From NCBI GenBank assembly GCA_015061905.1, contig SUVQ01000009.1, positions 62,001 to 126,000 on the forward strand: a stretch of 64,000 nt of DNA, given 5' to 3'. A model generated the notes under the pieces. It made no database searches. It was not told where the DNA came from and was given only the letters and a program-made list of their open reading frames with translations. This document shows positions 6,634-61,384 of the stretch, piece by piece (position 1 is the first letter of the stretch; each line of letters starts with the position of its first letter). The position numbers and the translations under genes were made by a program. Source of the stretch: Verrucomicrobiota bacterium (lineage in GTDB: Bacteria > Verrucomicrobiota > Verrucomicrobiia > Opitutales > UBA953).

Positions 6634-8421
6634 ATGCTAGAAAAATTCCTCAAGCAAACATCGTTTGTCAGCCAAGAAGATTTCGTCGAGAACTTTAGAA
6701 TTAACGTTCCCGAAAATTTTAACTTTGCTTACGACGTAATCGACGAATGGGCGAGAACGCATCCGCAGAAGCGCGCGCTTTGCTGGGTGAACGATCACGG
6801 CAAGCATATTGATTTTACGTTTGCGGATTTGAAGCGGGAAAGCGACCGCACCGCCTCGTTTTTTAAAAGTTGCGGAATCGGTCACGGCGACAAGGTGATG
6901 CTCATCCTTAAGCGTCGCTATGAGTTTTGGTTCGCGATTCTTGCTCTTCACAAATTGGGCGCGGTTTGCATTCCGGCAACGCATTTGCTGACGAAAAAGG
7001 ACATCGTTTACCGTTGTAATGCGGCGTCGATTAAGGCGATTGTGTGCGTCGGAGATGCGCTGGTTACCGAGCGCGTGAGCGTGTCCAAGCCGGATTGCGA
7101 AACGCTTGAAACGCTCATTTCCACGGGACCGATGGTGCCGGAAGGATTTAAGGATTTTCACACGGGAACGGAACACGCGCCGGAGTTCGTGCGTCCGGAG
7201 TTCGTCAACCGAAACGACGATATTTCGCTTCTCTATTTTACGTCGGGCACCACCGGTAATCCGAAAATGGTGGCGCACGACTACGCGTATCCGCTCGGAC
7301 ACATCGTTACCGGCGCGTATTGGCACAATCTTAATGAGGAAAGCTTGCATCTGACGGTGGCGGACACCGGTTGGGGCAAGGCGGTTTGGGGGAAACTTTA
7401 CGGACAATGGTTCGCCGGAGCTACGGTTTTCGTTTACGACCATGAAAAATTTACGCCGGCAGACATGCTTCAGGTGATTCAGGATTACCGCATTACCTCG
7501 TTTTGCGCGCCGCCGACGGTTTTCCGTTTTATGCTTCATGAAGATATGTCGAAATACGACTTGTCTTCTCTGAAATGGTGCACGATTGCGGGCGAAGCAC
7601 TCAATCCGAGCGTTTACGAGGATTTTTACAAAATCACCGGAATCAAGTTGCGTGAAGGCTTCGGACAAACCGAAACAACCTGCTCGATTTTGACAACGCC
7701 GTGGATGGAGCCCAAACCCGGCTCCATGGGAAAACCCAATCCCGCCTACAATGTCGATTTGGTGGACGAAAACGGAAACTCCGTTCCCGCCGGACAACAG
7801 GGCGAAATCGTCATTCGCTGCGAACCCGAAAATCGTCCCGCCGGACTTTTTAAAGGATATTTCCGCGACCGGAATCTTACCGCAAAAGTTTATCACGACG
7901 GCTTGTATCACACCGGCGACGTGGCAACGCGCGACGAGGACGGTTATTTCTGGTTTATCGGGCGCAACGACGACGTGATTAAAAGTTCCGGCTACCGCAT
8001 CGGTCCGTTCGAAGTCGAAAGCGCCGTGATGTCTTACGACGGCGTGGTGGAATGCGCGATTACCGGCGTTCCCGACGCGATTCGCGGGCAGGTGGTGAAA
8101 GCAACCATCGTGCTTTCGAAAACCTTCAAGGAAGCCGTTAAGGATTTTGAAGATTTGAAAAAGAAAATTCAGGATCACGTTAAACGGGAAACCGCGCCTT
8201 ACAAATATCCGCGCGTGATCGAATTTGTCGAAGAACTCCCGAAAACCATCAGCGGGAAAATTCGTCGCGTCGAAATCCGCGACCAAATGAAGAAGCTTTC
8301 CGAAGCCGTCGCTCCCGTCGTGGATAAAACAAAGGACATGACGAAAAAACTTTCCGAAATGTTCCCGAAAAACAAAAAGAACGCTTCGGTCGACGACGAA
8401 AAGGCTCCGCAGGCAAGTTAA
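6634..8421 (+). CDS. AMP-forming acyl-CoA synthetase (medium-chain acyl/acetyl-CoA synthetase-like)
   Basis: ANL-superfamily enzyme that activates a carboxylic acid through an acyl-adenylate to an acyl-CoA. The 595-aa protein has the P-loop-like YFTSGTTGNPK near residues 200-210, the adenine-binding region EGFGQTETT near 345, YHTGDVATRDEDGYFWFIGR near 425-450, the hinge, and PKTISGKIRR with the catalytic Lys near residue 540. Overall it resembles the medium-chain/butyryl group rather than classical Acs. About 45 extra lysine-rich residues follow the catalytic lysine region. The substrate cannot be told from sequence. The gene stands alone, ended by the hairpin at 8443-8481. Other CoA thioester genes (mmd operon) are 20 kb away. 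Confidence 0.88.
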   Translation: MLEKFLKQTSFVSQEDFVENFRINVPENFNFAYDVIDEWARTHPQKRALCWVNDHGKHIDFTFADLKRESDRTASFFKSCGIGHGDKVMLILKRRYEFWFAILALHKLGAVCIPATHLLTKKDIVYRCNAASIKAIVCVGDALVTERVSVSKPDCETLETLISTGPMVPEGFKDFHTGTEHAPEFVRPEFVNRNDDISLLYFTSGTTGNPKMVAHDYAYPLGHIVTGAYWHNLNEESLHLTVADTGWGKAVWGKLYGQWFAGATVFVYDHEKFTPADMLQVIQDYRITSFCAPPTVFRFMLHEDMSKYDLSSLKWCTIAGEALNPSVYEDFYKITGIKLREGFGQTETTCSILTTPWMEPKPGSMGKPNPAYNVDLVDENGNSVPAGQQGEIVIRCEPENRPAGLFKGYFRDRNLTAKVYHDGLYHTGDVATRDEDGYFWFIGRNDDVIKSSGYRIGPFEVESAVMSYDGVVECAITGVPDAIRGQVVKATIVLSKTFKEAVKDFEDLKKKIQDHVKRETAPYKYPRVIEFVEELPKTISGKIRRVEIRDQMKKLSEAVAPVVDKTKDMTKKLSEMFPKNKKNASVDDEKAPQAS

Positions 8422-55266: not shown

Positions 55267-58101
55267 ATGAAGACCTCAAAATTCTTCCTCTCTACCCTCA
55301 TTGCAGCCTCCGCAATGACCGCTACTGCGTATGCGGATGACGCACTTCTTACGATTGGTAGCGGAGAAACAAAATCGATTTCCGAAAATCTTTCTTACGA
55401 AAAGGTTTTTTTTAATATTCAGAGCGATGGAGCGGCTACGACGACATTAAATATTTCGAAAAATGCGTCGTTAACGATTACGGGAGATACGGCAACGAAT
55501 AGTGAATCTAGCGATTCGGCTGTTTCATTGGGACGAGCGGGGTTTGCTACTATAAATGTTGATGGAACATTCAATGTTTTGAATGCTAGCGGATTTGGCT
55601 CCAAGTGGTCCGGTGTAAATATGAACATTGGAAACGGAGGGGTGGTCAATTTAAAGAAGCTGTCTCTCGTATCTGAGTGGACAAATACGACAGTGAGCAC
55701 GTTGACGCTTTCGGAGGGTGCTACGTTGAATTTAGGAAGCGGAGGGTATGTACCTACATACGGTTACAATGGATACAATTCTTCCCAAGGTTTGCTGAAT
55801 TTAAATCTCACAGGGGGAACCCTCGGCGCACTTGATAGTTGGTCTACAACTGGGATGCTCTCTACAGCGGGAACAGTAACGTTGAATACAACAAAGTATG
55901 ATGCAAATTCTGCAACATACCTTTCAGAGGGAGCAACCATCGTTGCAAACGGTGGGCTATCCGGCGAAGGAAAATTTATTATTTCGGGGATAGGCACAGT
56001 AGAGACAACCAATATTTCTGTTAAAGATTTGGAAATCCGTGATGGTGCTACGTTGGCACTTACGAATCAGGTAGCACATTCGTACATAGCAGACGACGAA
56101 GCAAATTCAGGGATTCAGAGCAGTATTGCCGTTTATGAAATAATGTCAGGAGAGGGCACGCTTTCCGGTTTAACAAAGGATAATCTTAAGGTTAATAACT
56201 CTGCCGTAACAGAGGTCGACTTATCCGCAAAGACAGCGACAGCGAAAGCAACCATCTACCACATTGCTTTTAACGATAGCAAATTAATTACAGATGTGCA
56301 AAGCGCAGGAGATTACTCCGTGATTAATGTCGCAGGAACGTTGGATTTGGGGAGCGGGACCGGAGCGATTGGGATTGCGAATGCTCCTCTCGCGGTCGCG
56401 GGGACAGGTACGATTAAATACACATTCTCTCCCGACAATGCTGGTGGCAGTGGCTTTCACCTCTCTCAAGGCTTCCAAGGAACGCTTGATTGGACCGGAG
56501 GGTTTAATTGGCCCGGAAGCTATAGCACCGGCGTTTCCGTGAACAGGGATGTGTTACTTCGTTTTTCTTCTCGAGCCGGGAAAACAGATGAGATGTGGGG
56601 AAACACTTCATGGGCTCTTGAAAATGATGTTGAATTTGGATCGGACTATGGGATAAACCTTAATGGTAATTCTTTGACCTTTTTAGGTTCTGTTCGTTCC
56701 GAGGAGAATACTACTCTTTCTGTGAAAGGGACGAACACCCTGACGTTTGCCGGAGGCGCGACTTTAGGAGGGCTTTCAATTTCTGGTGGCACATTGTCGG
56801 TTTCCGGCGGGAACGCGTCTATTGCAACCCTTAATGCAACAGGCGGAACGTTGTCGGTCTCCGGAGGGAGCTTGGCTGTTGGAACATATAATGTCTTGAG
56901 TGGCACGTTTACGTTCGGGAGATTTTCCTCTGATTCTTTTGGGGAGGATTCTACAATCAATGTAAAATCTGGTGCGACGGTTTCCTTTAATCTTTCGGAC
57001 ACCGGTAGTAAGACATTTTCCGGTAATGTCGTTCTTGAAAATGGCGCGATTCTTAAGAAATTTGACGGAGGACTGGTTCTTAACGATATTCAACTTGGCT
57101 CAAGTGAATCCGATACGGTAACTATTCTTGGAAATTGGTTTAAGAATGGGACGGAAATTAAAGGCGTTCTTTCCGGAGCAGGAACGGCGTATTTCTCAAG
57201 TGCAGGAAATGCTAACACAAATTCTAATTTGGGGGCTACAGATGCAGAAAGATTTACAATTTCCGGTTCGAGCAATACTTATTCCGGAACATTGGTGGTT
57301 GGGAAATCTAGTGCAGACACAATATCAGGACAAAAAACAATCCTCGTCGTTGGCGCCGATACCGCACTCCAATACGCGAAGGTAAACCTTGCCGGCGGAG
57401 ACAATGCGGAAATGAAATTGGTAGCAAAAAATGTAACGATTGCCGGACTTGATGGTAATGACGGATCGAAAATTACGGGAGAGGCGGGGTCTACGCTTAC
57501 TATTAACGGCGGGGGGACGTTCGCAGGAGCAGTCGCTCCCGGAGGCGTTTCAATGCATTTGATGAAAACCGGAGACGAAATTTTGACACTTTCCGGAACA
57601 AATAATTACTCCGGCGGGACGACGATTTCTGCGGGAACGCTGGTCGCGGGTAACAATTCTGCGCTTGGCACGAATTTCGTTAAAATCTCCGGCGGGAAGT
57701 TGGAAATTAATTCCGGTGTAACGGTTTCGAACAATATCACCGTGGTCTTGGGGGATACGCTTGATGTAGCAGTAATCACCGGTGACGGTTCTTTTGATGG
57801 AAAAATCACTTTGGATTACGCCGCTTCCGCAGAAAATGTGGCGTTGGCACTCGCTACGGAAGAAACGACGAAAACTTATACGCTTTTGAGCGGGAACGTC
57901 GGAAGCACGTTGACGACGAACTCTTTTGAACTCGGCACGGGCTGGGCAGACGGCTGGAAGATTTCCGGCTATGTTTACGATTCGGAAACAAGAGTCGGGA
58001 CTTTGACACTCGGTATTCCTGAGCCGTCGGCGTTCGGATTGTTGGCGGGAGTAGGTGCGTTGGCGCTAGTGGCGTCGCGTCGTCGGCGTTCCCGTCGCTA
58101 A
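55267..58101 (+). CDS. Autotransporter-repeat surface protein with PEP-CTERM tail
   Basis: 944-aa secreted protein. Signal peptide (FFLSTLIAASAMTATAYA), then a long Gly/Ser/Thr/Asn-rich series of beta-strand repeats. These include autotransporter-associated beta-strand repeats (LTLSGTNNYSGGTTISAGTL near residue 775, NTYSGTLVVGKSS near 675, GGLSISGGTLSVSGG near 500), which predict a right-handed beta-helix. The C-terminus IPEPSAFGLLAGVGALALVA and RRRRSRR is a PEP-CTERM signal, so anchoring depends on an exosortase rather than an outer-membrane barrel. Base composition is more A/T-rich than its neighbours and octamers occur only in the last half. Directly repeated DNA upstream and a hairpin repeat two bases after the stop mark a variable locus. 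Confidence 0.88.
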   Translation: MKTSKFFLSTLIAASAMTATAYADDALLTIGSGETKSISENLSYEKVFFNIQSDGAATTTLNISKNASLTITGDTATNSESSDSAVSLGRAGFATINVDGTFNVLNASGFGSKWSGVNMNIGNGGVVNLKKLSLVSEWTNTTVSTLTLSEGATLNLGSGGYVPTYGYNGYNSSQGLLNLNLTGGTLGALDSWSTTGMLSTAGTVTLNTTKYDANSATYLSEGATIVANGGLSGEGKFIISGIGTVETTNISVKDLEIRDGATLALTNQVAHSYIADDEANSGIQSSIAVYEIMSGEGTLSGLTKDNLKVNNSAVTEVDLSAKTATAKATIYHIAFNDSKLITDVQSAGDYSVINVAGTLDLGSGTGAIGIANAPLAVAGTGTIKYTFSPDNAGGSGFHLSQGFQGTLDWTGGFNWPGSYSTGVSVNRDVLLRFSSRAGKTDEMWGNTSWALENDVEFGSDYGINLNGNSLTFLGSVRSEENTTLSVKGTNTLTFAGGATLGGLSISGGTLSVSGGNASIATLNATGGTLSVSGGSLAVGTYNVLSGTFTFGRFSSDSFGEDSTINVKSGATVSFNLSDTGSKTFSGNVVLENGAILKKFDGGLVLNDIQLGSSESDTVTILGNWFKNGTEIKGVLSGAGTAYFSSAGNANTNSNLGATDAERFTISGSSNTYSGTLVVGKSSADTISGQKTILVVGADTALQYAKVNLAGGDNAEMKLVAKNVTIAGLDGNDGSKITGEAGSTLTINGGGTFAGAVAPGGVSMHLMKTGDEILTLSGTNNYSGGTTISAGTLVAGNNSALGTNFVKISGGKLEINSGVTVSNNITVVLGDTLDVAVITGDGSFDGKITLDYAASAENVALALATEETTKTYTLLSGNVGSTLTTNSFELGTGWADGWKISGYVYDSETRVGTLTLGIPEPSAFGLLAGVGALALVASRRRRSRR

Positions 58102-58477: not shown

Positions 58478-60160
58478 ATGAGCGAAGAAACCATTTCTCC
58501 TGAAACGCCGGCGGTCAATCGCCACTTCATTCGTCAAATCATCGACAACGACCTCGCCGCGGGAACGGTCAAAAGCATCGTTACGCGTTTCCCGCCCGAG
58601 CCGAACGGCTACCTGCACATCGGGCACGCGAAGGCGATTTGCCTCGATTTCGGCATGGCAAAAGAATACGGCGGAAAATGCCATTTGCGCATGGACGATA
58701 CGAACCCGACGCGCGAAGACGTCGAATACGTCGAATCCATTCAGGAAGACGTGCGCTGGCTCGGTTTCGATTGGGGCGAAAATTATTTTCACGCGTCGGA
58801 TTATTTCGACAAAATTTACGATTACGCGATTCAGCTGATTAAGCTCGGCAAAGCCTACGTTTGCCATCTTTCCGCCGAAGAATGGAAAGATTATCGCGGC
58901 GTTCCCGACAAGCCGGGAAAAGCCTCGCCGTGGCGGGAACGCTCCGTCGAGGAAAACCTCGAAGAATTTGCCAAAATGACGCGCGGCGAATACGACGAAG
59001 GCGCGGCGACGCTTCGCGCGAAAGTCGATATGTTTTCGCCGAACATGCACATGCGCGATCCCGTCATTTACCGCGTGCGCAAAGTCGCTCACCACAACAC
59101 GGGCGACAAATGGTGCGTTTACCCGATGTATGACTTTGCGCACCCGCTCGAAGATGCGATTGAGGGCGTAACGCACTCGATTTGCACGCTCGAATTTGAG
59201 GTGCATCGCCCGTTTTACGATTGGGTAATCAACACGCTGAACACGCCTGCGAAACCGCATCAATACGAATTTGCACGCCTGAACCTGACTTACACGATGA
59301 TGAGCAAGCGCCGCCTGCTCGAACTCGTGCAGGAAAACCTTGTCAACGGTTGGGACGACCCGCGCATGCCCACGGTTTGCGGGCTGCGCCGCCGCGGCTA
59401 CACGCCGGAATCCATTCGCAATTTCTGCGAAATTATCGGTGTGACGAAATACAATTCGCTCACGGATGTCGCCTTGCTCGAACACACCGTGCGCGCTGAT
59501 TTGAACAAAACCTCGCCGCGCGCGATGGCGGTGATGAACCCGGTCAAAGTCGTTATCGACAATTATCCGGAAAACCAAGTCGAAGAACTCGTCGCCGTCA
59601 ACAATCCCGAAGACGAAGCGGCGGGAACGCGCATCGTGCCGTTTTCCCGTGAAATTTTCATCGAACGCGAAGACTTCATGGAAGACGCGCCGAAGAAATT
59701 TTTCCGCCTCACGCCGGGACGCGAAGTGCGTCTGCGCTGGGCTTACGTCGTCAAATGCGTTTCCTGCGAAAAGGACGCGGACGGGAACGTCTCCGTCATT
59801 CACTGCACTTACGATCCGGAAACGCGCGGCGGGAACACGCCCGACGGACGCAAAATCAAGGCGACGATTCACTGGGTTTCCGCAGCGCACGCCAAGCCCG
59901 TCGAAGTGCGCCTCTACGACCGCCTTTTCACGAAAGAAGAGCCGGCGGACGTTCCCGAAGGCGGCGACTGGCGCGACAATCTGAACCCGAACTCGCTCAC
60001 CGTGGCGACCGCGCTTGTCGAACCGTCGCTCTTGGACGTTCCCGCCGGCGCGCGTTTCCAGTTTGAGCGCATCGGCTATTTCTGCGCCGACCCGGATTCC
60101 AAGCCCGGCGCGCCCGTCTTTAATCGCACGGTAACGCTCAAAGACTCCAAAAAGTTTTAA
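58478..60160 (+). CDS. glnS: Glutaminyl-tRNA synthetase
   Basis: Class I aminoacyl-tRNA synthetase that charges tRNA-Gln directly. The 560-aa protein has [20 protein letters not shown] with the HIGH motif near residue 47, [40 protein letters not shown], and the KMSKS equivalent [12 protein letters not shown] near 275. The C-terminal beta-barrel anticodon domains are complete. A direct GlnRS means Gln-tRNA need not depend on GatCAB, and is often laterally acquired outside Proteobacteria. The frame is open upstream to 58340 but ATG at 58478 begins [20 protein letters not shown] as in the family. Confidence 0.96.
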
Positions 60161-60177
60161 TTCGCAAAAAACGTTTT

Positions 60178-61276
60178 ATGAACGAAGTCGTCGCAAATAA
60201 GACAAATTGTCCCCCCCCCCCCCGATGCGCGCTCTGAATTTTTACAGCAAATTCGCGGCTTGTGCATTGTCGCGGTTGTATTAATTCATACGGTCGGAAT
60301 GCCGATAAATGATGAAACCTCGTATCTTCTCGTTTTGATGCGAGGTTTCATCAATTTTCCGGTAGCCGTATTTTTCTTTCTTGCCGGATTTTTTAATAAA
60401 TCTGCCGGCTCTTATGCGGGAACGGAAAGGAAAAAACTGTTTTCCCGAATTATACGATTGCTTGTCCCGTATATTTTTTGGACGGCATTTTATCTTTGCG
60501 CGTATTATTCGCTTAGTGTTGTTGCCGGAAAGCCGTTTGACCTGTTACGTGTGCCGAAAGCATTTTTATTCGGGAGTGCAACCGCTCCGCTTTATTTCTT
60601 ACACGTTTTACTCCAACTTACGTTAATTACACCGATTCTTGTTGCGATAATCAGGGGAGAATCGCTCTTTTCAAAAGTTTTGAAATGGGGACTTTTCGGA
60701 ACGACTCCGTTGTATATTTTAGTTCGATATGGGTATGATTTTTGCGCGGGAACGGACTTGCCGCATTATGAGTTGCCTTGTTTCGCGTGGTTTACTTATT
60801 ACTACCTCGGATTGTTTTGTGCTCAGAATCGCGGCTTGAAAACGAAGACCTTAGGGCTGTTCCCGTCTGTTCTTATTGCATTTTTAGCGCTGTTCATTGC
60901 AATTTGGGAAGGATTTGCAATCTACAACCAAGCCGGATCGGAAATGTTTTCTCTCGCAGCCTCGCAAACTCGTTTGGGGTCAATGCTGTTCTCTCTCGCA
61001 ATCATTAATCTGATTTTAAGAATAAAAGATACAAATCCGAAACCTAACGGAGTTTTGTCTGCTCTCGGAGATTATTCTTTCGGTATATATTCGTTTCATA
61101 TGTTCTGGATGATTCCTCTGGCGTTTGTCTTTTCCCGAATGATTTTTACTCCGGAAATCCTTCCGATTCTTAAGGTAATTCAAGCTTTTATTTGTTTAGG
61201 AGCTACGTTTTTTGCGTGCAAGTTTACGGAGAAAAAAATCGGTAGCAAAACGGCAAAGATTTTGGGACTGAAGTAG
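60178..61276 (+). CDS. Phase-variable acyltransferase-3 family membrane protein (out of frame in this sequence)
   Basis: Integral membrane O-acyltransferase of the OafA/NodX type, which acetylates surface sugars. ATG at 60178 opens MNEVVANKTNC, then 13 C (60211-60223) shift the frame and translation stops at MNEVVANKTNCPPPPRCAL. With 12 or 15 C the frame continues into DARSEFLQQIRGLCIVAVVL, the normal start of the family (FLQQIRGL...VLIH), giving 365 aa with about ten hydrophobic segments (FPVAVFFFLAGFF, IIRLLVPYIFWTAFY, GDYSFGIYSFHMFW). So the sequenced form is OFF. GTG at 60260 would give a shorter protein lacking the conserved start. It lies 17 bp after glnS. Confidence 0.85.
60211..60223 (+). 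repeat. Homopolymer tract of 13 C (contingency tract)
   Basis: Thirteen consecutive C directly after codon 11 of the acyltransferase. It is the only long G or C homopolymer I noticed in the window. The length sets the reading frame of the gene (12 or 15 in frame, 13 out of frame). Confidence 0.95.
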
Positions 61277-61384
61277 ATTCACAGAACTTTTTTTTCGCAT
61301 AGCGCGTTTTAAGAGGCTTGGCGGCTTGCGTTTATGCCGATTTGAGGTTTTGATATCCGCTACTTCTAAAACTTGCAAACAGAT

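Follow-up and report, generated by a model that had tools for sequence, protein, structure and literature searches.

A poly-C tract between start codon and coding body probably makes a stand-alone acyltransferase gene phase variable in an uncultured Opitutales lineage

Does an acyltransferase gene whose only usable start codon is thrown out of frame with its coding body by a long run of cytosines represent a reversible switch, or is it a gene in decay? The locus that raises this question lies in a 2.08-Mb draft genome of 17 contigs (G000), within a window of 64,000 nucleotides (G000:C15:62001-126000), by which we mean the whole stretch of DNA that was analyzed. The gene is bordered by glnS upstream (stop at 60160) and by a ydiY-like gene downstream (ATG 61385), and the features that matter to the argument are collected in Table 1. 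Before glnS, at positions 55267 to 58101 of the window, there is also a gene for a 944-amino-acid repeat-rich secreted protein with a PEP-CTERM-like tail, PEPSAFGLLAGVGALALVASRRRRSRR.

Translation from the ATG, which sits 17 bp past the glnS stop, gives the 19-residue product MNEVVANKTNCPPPPRCAL followed by a stop when the tract holds 13 C, as a first-pass annotation made from the letters of the DNA had stated. The same annotation was correct in the spacing of the ATG, in placing the 13-C tract after codon 11, and in claiming that 12 or 15 C would bring the downstream frame into register; any tract length divisible by 3 joins the ATG to the core. Immediately 3' of the tract, the frame is open for 350 codons and begins DARSEFLQQIRGLCIVAVV. 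At 13 C, the frame that enters this core is closed by a TGA that overlaps the ATG, 9 codons before the tract, and between that TGA and the tract it contains no ATG, GTG, or TTG, so that the OFF state is strict for ordinary starts.

Table 1. Features of the acyltransferase locus, in window coordinates
Feature	Position	Strand	Remarks
Leader, ATG plus 10 codons (MNEVVANKTNC)	60178..60210	+	33 nt; only usable start
Poly-C tract, 13 nt	60211..60223	+	Presumed slippage site
OFF-state reading frame, 19 aa	60178..60237	+	TGA at 60235-60237
AT3 core, 350 codons plus stop (PF01757)	60224..61276	+	Without start codon at its beginning
Arg11 codon of core, first residue of R/K-X10-H	60254..60256	+	Motif and essential Arg per PMC7448272
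His22 codon of core, closing R11-X10-H22	60287-60289		
TTG, first possible internal start (core codon 13)	60260..60262	+	Product without Arg11
Segment missing between glnS and ydiY in four readable sister species	60161..61384	+	Gene and switch as insertion, 42-45% GC

Judging from these frames and from the comparisons described below, we consider it very likely that this is a horizontally moving, stand-alone gene for a membrane enzyme of the acyltransferase-3 (AT3) family, under translational phase variation by slipped-strand mispairing. Translation starting at the ATG would have to cross the poly-C tract, and slipped-strand mispairing during replication would lengthen or shorten it by one C or a few. 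One third of the possible lengths, those divisible by 3, would place the leader in frame with the core (ON) and yield a product of about 365 to 366 amino acids, its N-terminal region holding four or five prolines. All other lengths would end translation only a few codons past the tract and give a peptide of about 20 residues (OFF), the state seen in the consensus sequence. A population would then mix cells with modified and unmodified surface glycan, and such mixing may be where the advantage of the arrangement lies.

The tract itself is an extreme outlier among the G/C runs of the window and is beyond chance. Runs of 4, 5, and 6 number 132, 13, and 1, respectively, after which comes only the single run of 13, and under a first-order model about 0.0007 C or G runs of at least 13 would be expected per 64 kb. 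In its own genome, there are about 15 C/G runs of at least 9 versus roughly 1 to 7 expected, the expectation being extrapolated with a first-order model from the window alone.

Membership of the core in the acyltransferase-3 family, which the first-pass annotation had proposed, is borne out by a profile match and by two sequence motifs. Residues 6 to 329 align with positions 3 to 318 of the 326 positions of PF01757 (Acyl_transf_3; E = 1.4e-29), with a score of 103.6 bits against a curated cutoff of 31, covering nearly the whole domain. The R/K-X10-H motif of the first AT3 helix is present as R11-X10-H22, and the RxxR motif of the third helix is present as R75-I-I-R78, which is kept in the orthologue of a sister species. 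A crude hydropathy scan of the core gave 5 to 7 strong peaks, the family having about ten transmembrane helices. Searches by sequence in the PDB found no relative of the core, and no NCBIfam model matched it. In Salmonella OafA, both residues of the R/K-X10-H motif are essential, with R14A and H25A retaining 0.07% and 0.33% of wild-type signal, respectively (PMC7448272). The first possible internal start, which had been reported as GTG and is actually TTG, comes after Arg11, so a product initiated there would lose the catalytic Arg, and expression from this codon was rejected for that reason. Three homologues have the same pattern, with their first internal start located after the catalytic Arg.

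AT3 enzymes act on many substrates. From its family, the product of this gene probably transfers an acyl group, acetyl or another, to a glycan on the cell surface. The more precise target that had been suggested, O-antigen, found no specific support and is a family-level guess, because this is a stand-alone gene flanked by glnS and ydiY and not part of a polysaccharide cluster.

We compared AT3 genes across eight genomes of the genus, including G000 and G002 to G007. The MAG Opitutales bacterium RGIG9148 (G005), from water-deer rectum, is the closest named relative to share the gene; its orthologue is 67% identical and lies at a different chromosomal site. This orthologue consists of an ATG plus 10 codons, an A, C13, and a startless core; it requires a tract length of 2 modulo 3 and is OFF at C13. 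A third species (G006) carries two neighboring AT3 genes that are 70% identical to each other and 25 to 28% identical to the genes of G000 and G005. Both are built from an ATG plus 11 codons, an A, C9, and a startless core, and both require 1 modulo 3 and are OFF at C9. Leaders ahead of the tract measure 33, 34, 37, and 37 nt in the G000 gene, the G005 gene, and the two G006 genes, respectively, even though their peptides differ (MNEVVANKTNC, MNNTKNEIRHN, MENSDDVKANLT, and MEKRDDNKSAEL, followed by C13, C13, C9, and C9); the tract has been kept while its flanks have diverged. All four genes with this 5' tract are OFF in the deposited consensus, and no ON example with the same layout was found among the genomes compared.

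Other AT3 genes of the genus fall outside this layout. A fifth gene (L118, G003:C16) is split about 63 codons after an ATG by a G13 run and is a further candidate for a switch, in this case with G instead of C on the coding strand; a sixth (G002:C13) contains an in-frame G10. In the eight genomes, G/C runs of at least 8 are absent from the start and the interior of all remaining AT3 genes except a stop-containing copy (G006:C187), which has a C8 near the end of its match. Tracts are thus confined to some of the accessory AT3 genes, in lineages that diverged long ago.

The gene also appears to be mobile. In G002, G004, G005, and G007, ydiY follows glnS within about 75 to 210 bp, with no AT3 gene between them, and the G000 segment is 42 to 45% GC versus 52 to 59% in the flanking glnS and ydiY coding DNA. 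The gene occurs in 2 of the 373 genomes searched in the order and at 1 locus in the GTDB contigs searched. None was found in phages, plasmids gave only matches of 25 to 29%, and among these order genomes, GTDB contigs, phages, and plasmids no donor was found. Together, the insertion between glnS and ydiY, the shift in GC content, and the rarity of the gene indicate that it was acquired or moved with its switch, or that it gained the switch later.

An accessory gene of this kind, OFF in the consensus of G000 and of three homologues, might instead be degrading, with a mutation-prone run at its start, the OFF state fixed, and the gene on its way out. The first-pass annotation had taken the match between the required frame and the start of the protein family as strong evidence for a switch rather than a degraded gene. 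That match is a weak argument by itself, and it is the sister-species comparison that favors the switch. The 350-codon core is intact, without a second lesion, in 4 of the 4 genes with a 5' tract. Comparison of the G000 and G005 cores gives a dN of 0.28 and a dS of 2.05; the latter is saturated, so that the resulting dN/dS of about 0.14 is rough; over 347 codons, the differences at codon positions 1, 2, and 3 number 98, 65, and 194, respectively. These values point to strong purifying selection on the core, with the proviso that in a comparison of only two sequences one lineage could have relaxed. The recurrence of leader length, tract, and startless core in lineages 25 to 28% identical likewise speaks against decay. 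A gene that has already decayed was rejected, with the core intact and dN/dS low, and we regard one in the course of decay as improbable. A reversible switch would be expected to show just this combination of an OFF state in both consensus sequences and purifying selection.

It is more improbable still that the tract is an artefact of sequencing or assembly, whether the true tract is in frame or the poly-C stems from two-color chemistry or assembly. Assembly trouble at C runs does occur in the genus. Very long C runs stand at many contig ends of G006, where they inflate the tract count and are probably sequencing or assembly artefacts. In G000 itself, a C14-G8-N10 stretch with an extra 143 nt relative to G004 and a second C15 behind it (L045, 8238-8395; G000:C14:25237-25394) is likely a scaffold gap or a misassembly at a homopolymer. 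Both cases were excluded as evidence. The C13 tract of the acyltransferase gene, however, lies within its contig with normal flanks, the equivalent site in an independent assembly (G005) is also C13, and a core without any other start requires some tract length anyway. A miscount would alter the ON or OFF state in G000 but not the existence of the switch. MAG assemblies may misjudge homopolymer length, and with such uncertain counts the OFF call for the consensus is less secure than the existence of a switch.

C runs of at least 11 are present in all 8 genomes of the genus, and their lengths can be compared where sister species are nearly identical. Over 6.2 kb of a polysaccharide cluster, G000 and G004 are 98.4% identical, and all three C tracts that they share in this stretch differ (C10/C11, C12/C14, and C14 in G004 against a broken assembly in G000); beyond these tracts, one further 1-nt difference was found. 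Tract-length polymorphism is thus known here at tracts other than that of the acyltransferase gene, and between species. Such DNA length differences point to replication slippage. The least credible of the alternatives is that the run gives a constant low enzyme level through transcriptional slippage or ribosomal frameshifting on poly-C, as long homopolymers in general can provoke slippage of RNA polymerase or ribosomes, but DNA length varies between near-identical homologous tracts of sister species, and tract lengths differ in frame among the genes, with no fixed frameshift class. MutS and MutL are encoded in all eight genomes, as expected with ordinary slippage, and loss of mismatch repair as the origin of the tracts was rejected on the same finding. 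The proposal from which this analysis started, a phase-variable AT3 gene that is OFF in the consensus, is therefore strengthened by the architecture conserved in the orthologue and the distant homologues, by purifying selection, by the loss of the catalytic Arg from an internal-start product, and by the unstable tracts across the genus; the OFF call is its weaker part.

Further tract genes of the genus, among them a group-1 glycosyltransferase and a Fic protein, are of kinds typical of phase variation. In G005, a C15 (L084, G005:C14, 6880-6894, minus strand) lies in frame in a 981-amino-acid MmeI-like restriction-modification enzyme, between the spacer and methyltransferase domains, which makes this gene a phasevarion candidate. 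In a type I HsdS of the same genome, a C11 (L086, G005:C19, 6943-6953, minus strand) separates the two target-recognition halves, and at this length the protein is truncated past the first half. G004 has an arrangement of ATG ATT A, C14, and a frame of 436 codons that lacks a start and encodes T5orf172 and EcoRI-type methylase domains (L080, G004:C6, tract at 6901), OFF in the consensus and with the leader-tract-core layout of the acyltransferases. C tracts are also found at the 3' ends of PglD-like, GNAT, and ATP-grasp genes of a polysaccharide cluster (L045, G000:C14, at 7668, 8238, and 10351; L078, G004:C4), with lengths that vary between species and possible C-terminal switching, and at the 3' ends of a Wzy polymerase gene (L038) and an opine-dehydrogenase-like gene (L039).

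Known systems offer several parallels. Haemophilus influenzae oafA encodes an AT3 O-acetyltransferase of lipooligosaccharide (LOS) heptose that is phase variable via a GCAA repeat (PMC9558356, PMC6479036). It resembles the gene described here in belonging to the AT3 family of surface-sugar acetyltransferases and in carrying a simple sequence repeat inside the reading frame, whereas the repeat is a tetranucleotide rather than poly-C, the substrate is known, and the phylum is another. Salmonella oafB/gtr likewise provides phase-variable O-antigen acetylation by an AT3 protein, but under epigenetic control by DNA methylation and with no repeat tract (PMC9558356). Closer in phylogeny, Akkermansia muciniphila belongs to the same phylum and has homopolymers in surface-polysaccharide genes. 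In culture, the length of the G9 in Amuc_1413 changed, reads were mixed, and mucin binding was lost (PMC13055324); a C10 tract is present in Amuc_2098, which encodes an acyltransferase (PMC3048395). Unlike the gene studied here, Amuc_1413 is an EPS gene with its poly-G at codon 55, and Amuc_2098 belongs to the capsule locus cps1, its repeat having been placed by a later paper at the end of the gene (PMC13343947) and not between start and core. Helicobacter canadensis, from another phylum, has multi-gene poly-G/C switches at the 5' or 3' ends of polysaccharide genes, including C-terminal homopolymer switching in sugar genes (PMC2823697). The picture across the present genus is similar, although mixing of lengths within a population was shown in H. 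canadensis and only consensus sequences are compared here. The kind of switch is therefore a familiar one from H. influenzae oafA and the Akkermansia homopolymers, and it is very probably found here in a group from which there are hardly any descriptions of it; our literature search, which was incomplete in coverage, found no paper linking Opitutales with phase variation.

We would put at even chances a broader reading, in which the genus possesses a multi-gene homopolymer phasome. A unit of ATG leader and poly-C would have been attached, independently or as a traveling cassette, to unrelated site-hopping acyltransferases, alongside phase-variable DNA methyltransferases and C-terminal polysaccharide switches. 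If true, this would mean combinatorial surface and epigenetic variation in a nonpathogenic lineage. A recent review asks whether the focus of repeat-driven phase variation on pathogens reflects database bias (PMC11868660). In uncultured gut Verrucomicrobiota, a conserved acyltransferase switch, together with a set of tracts like it, is an argument that commensals also phase-vary by repeats.
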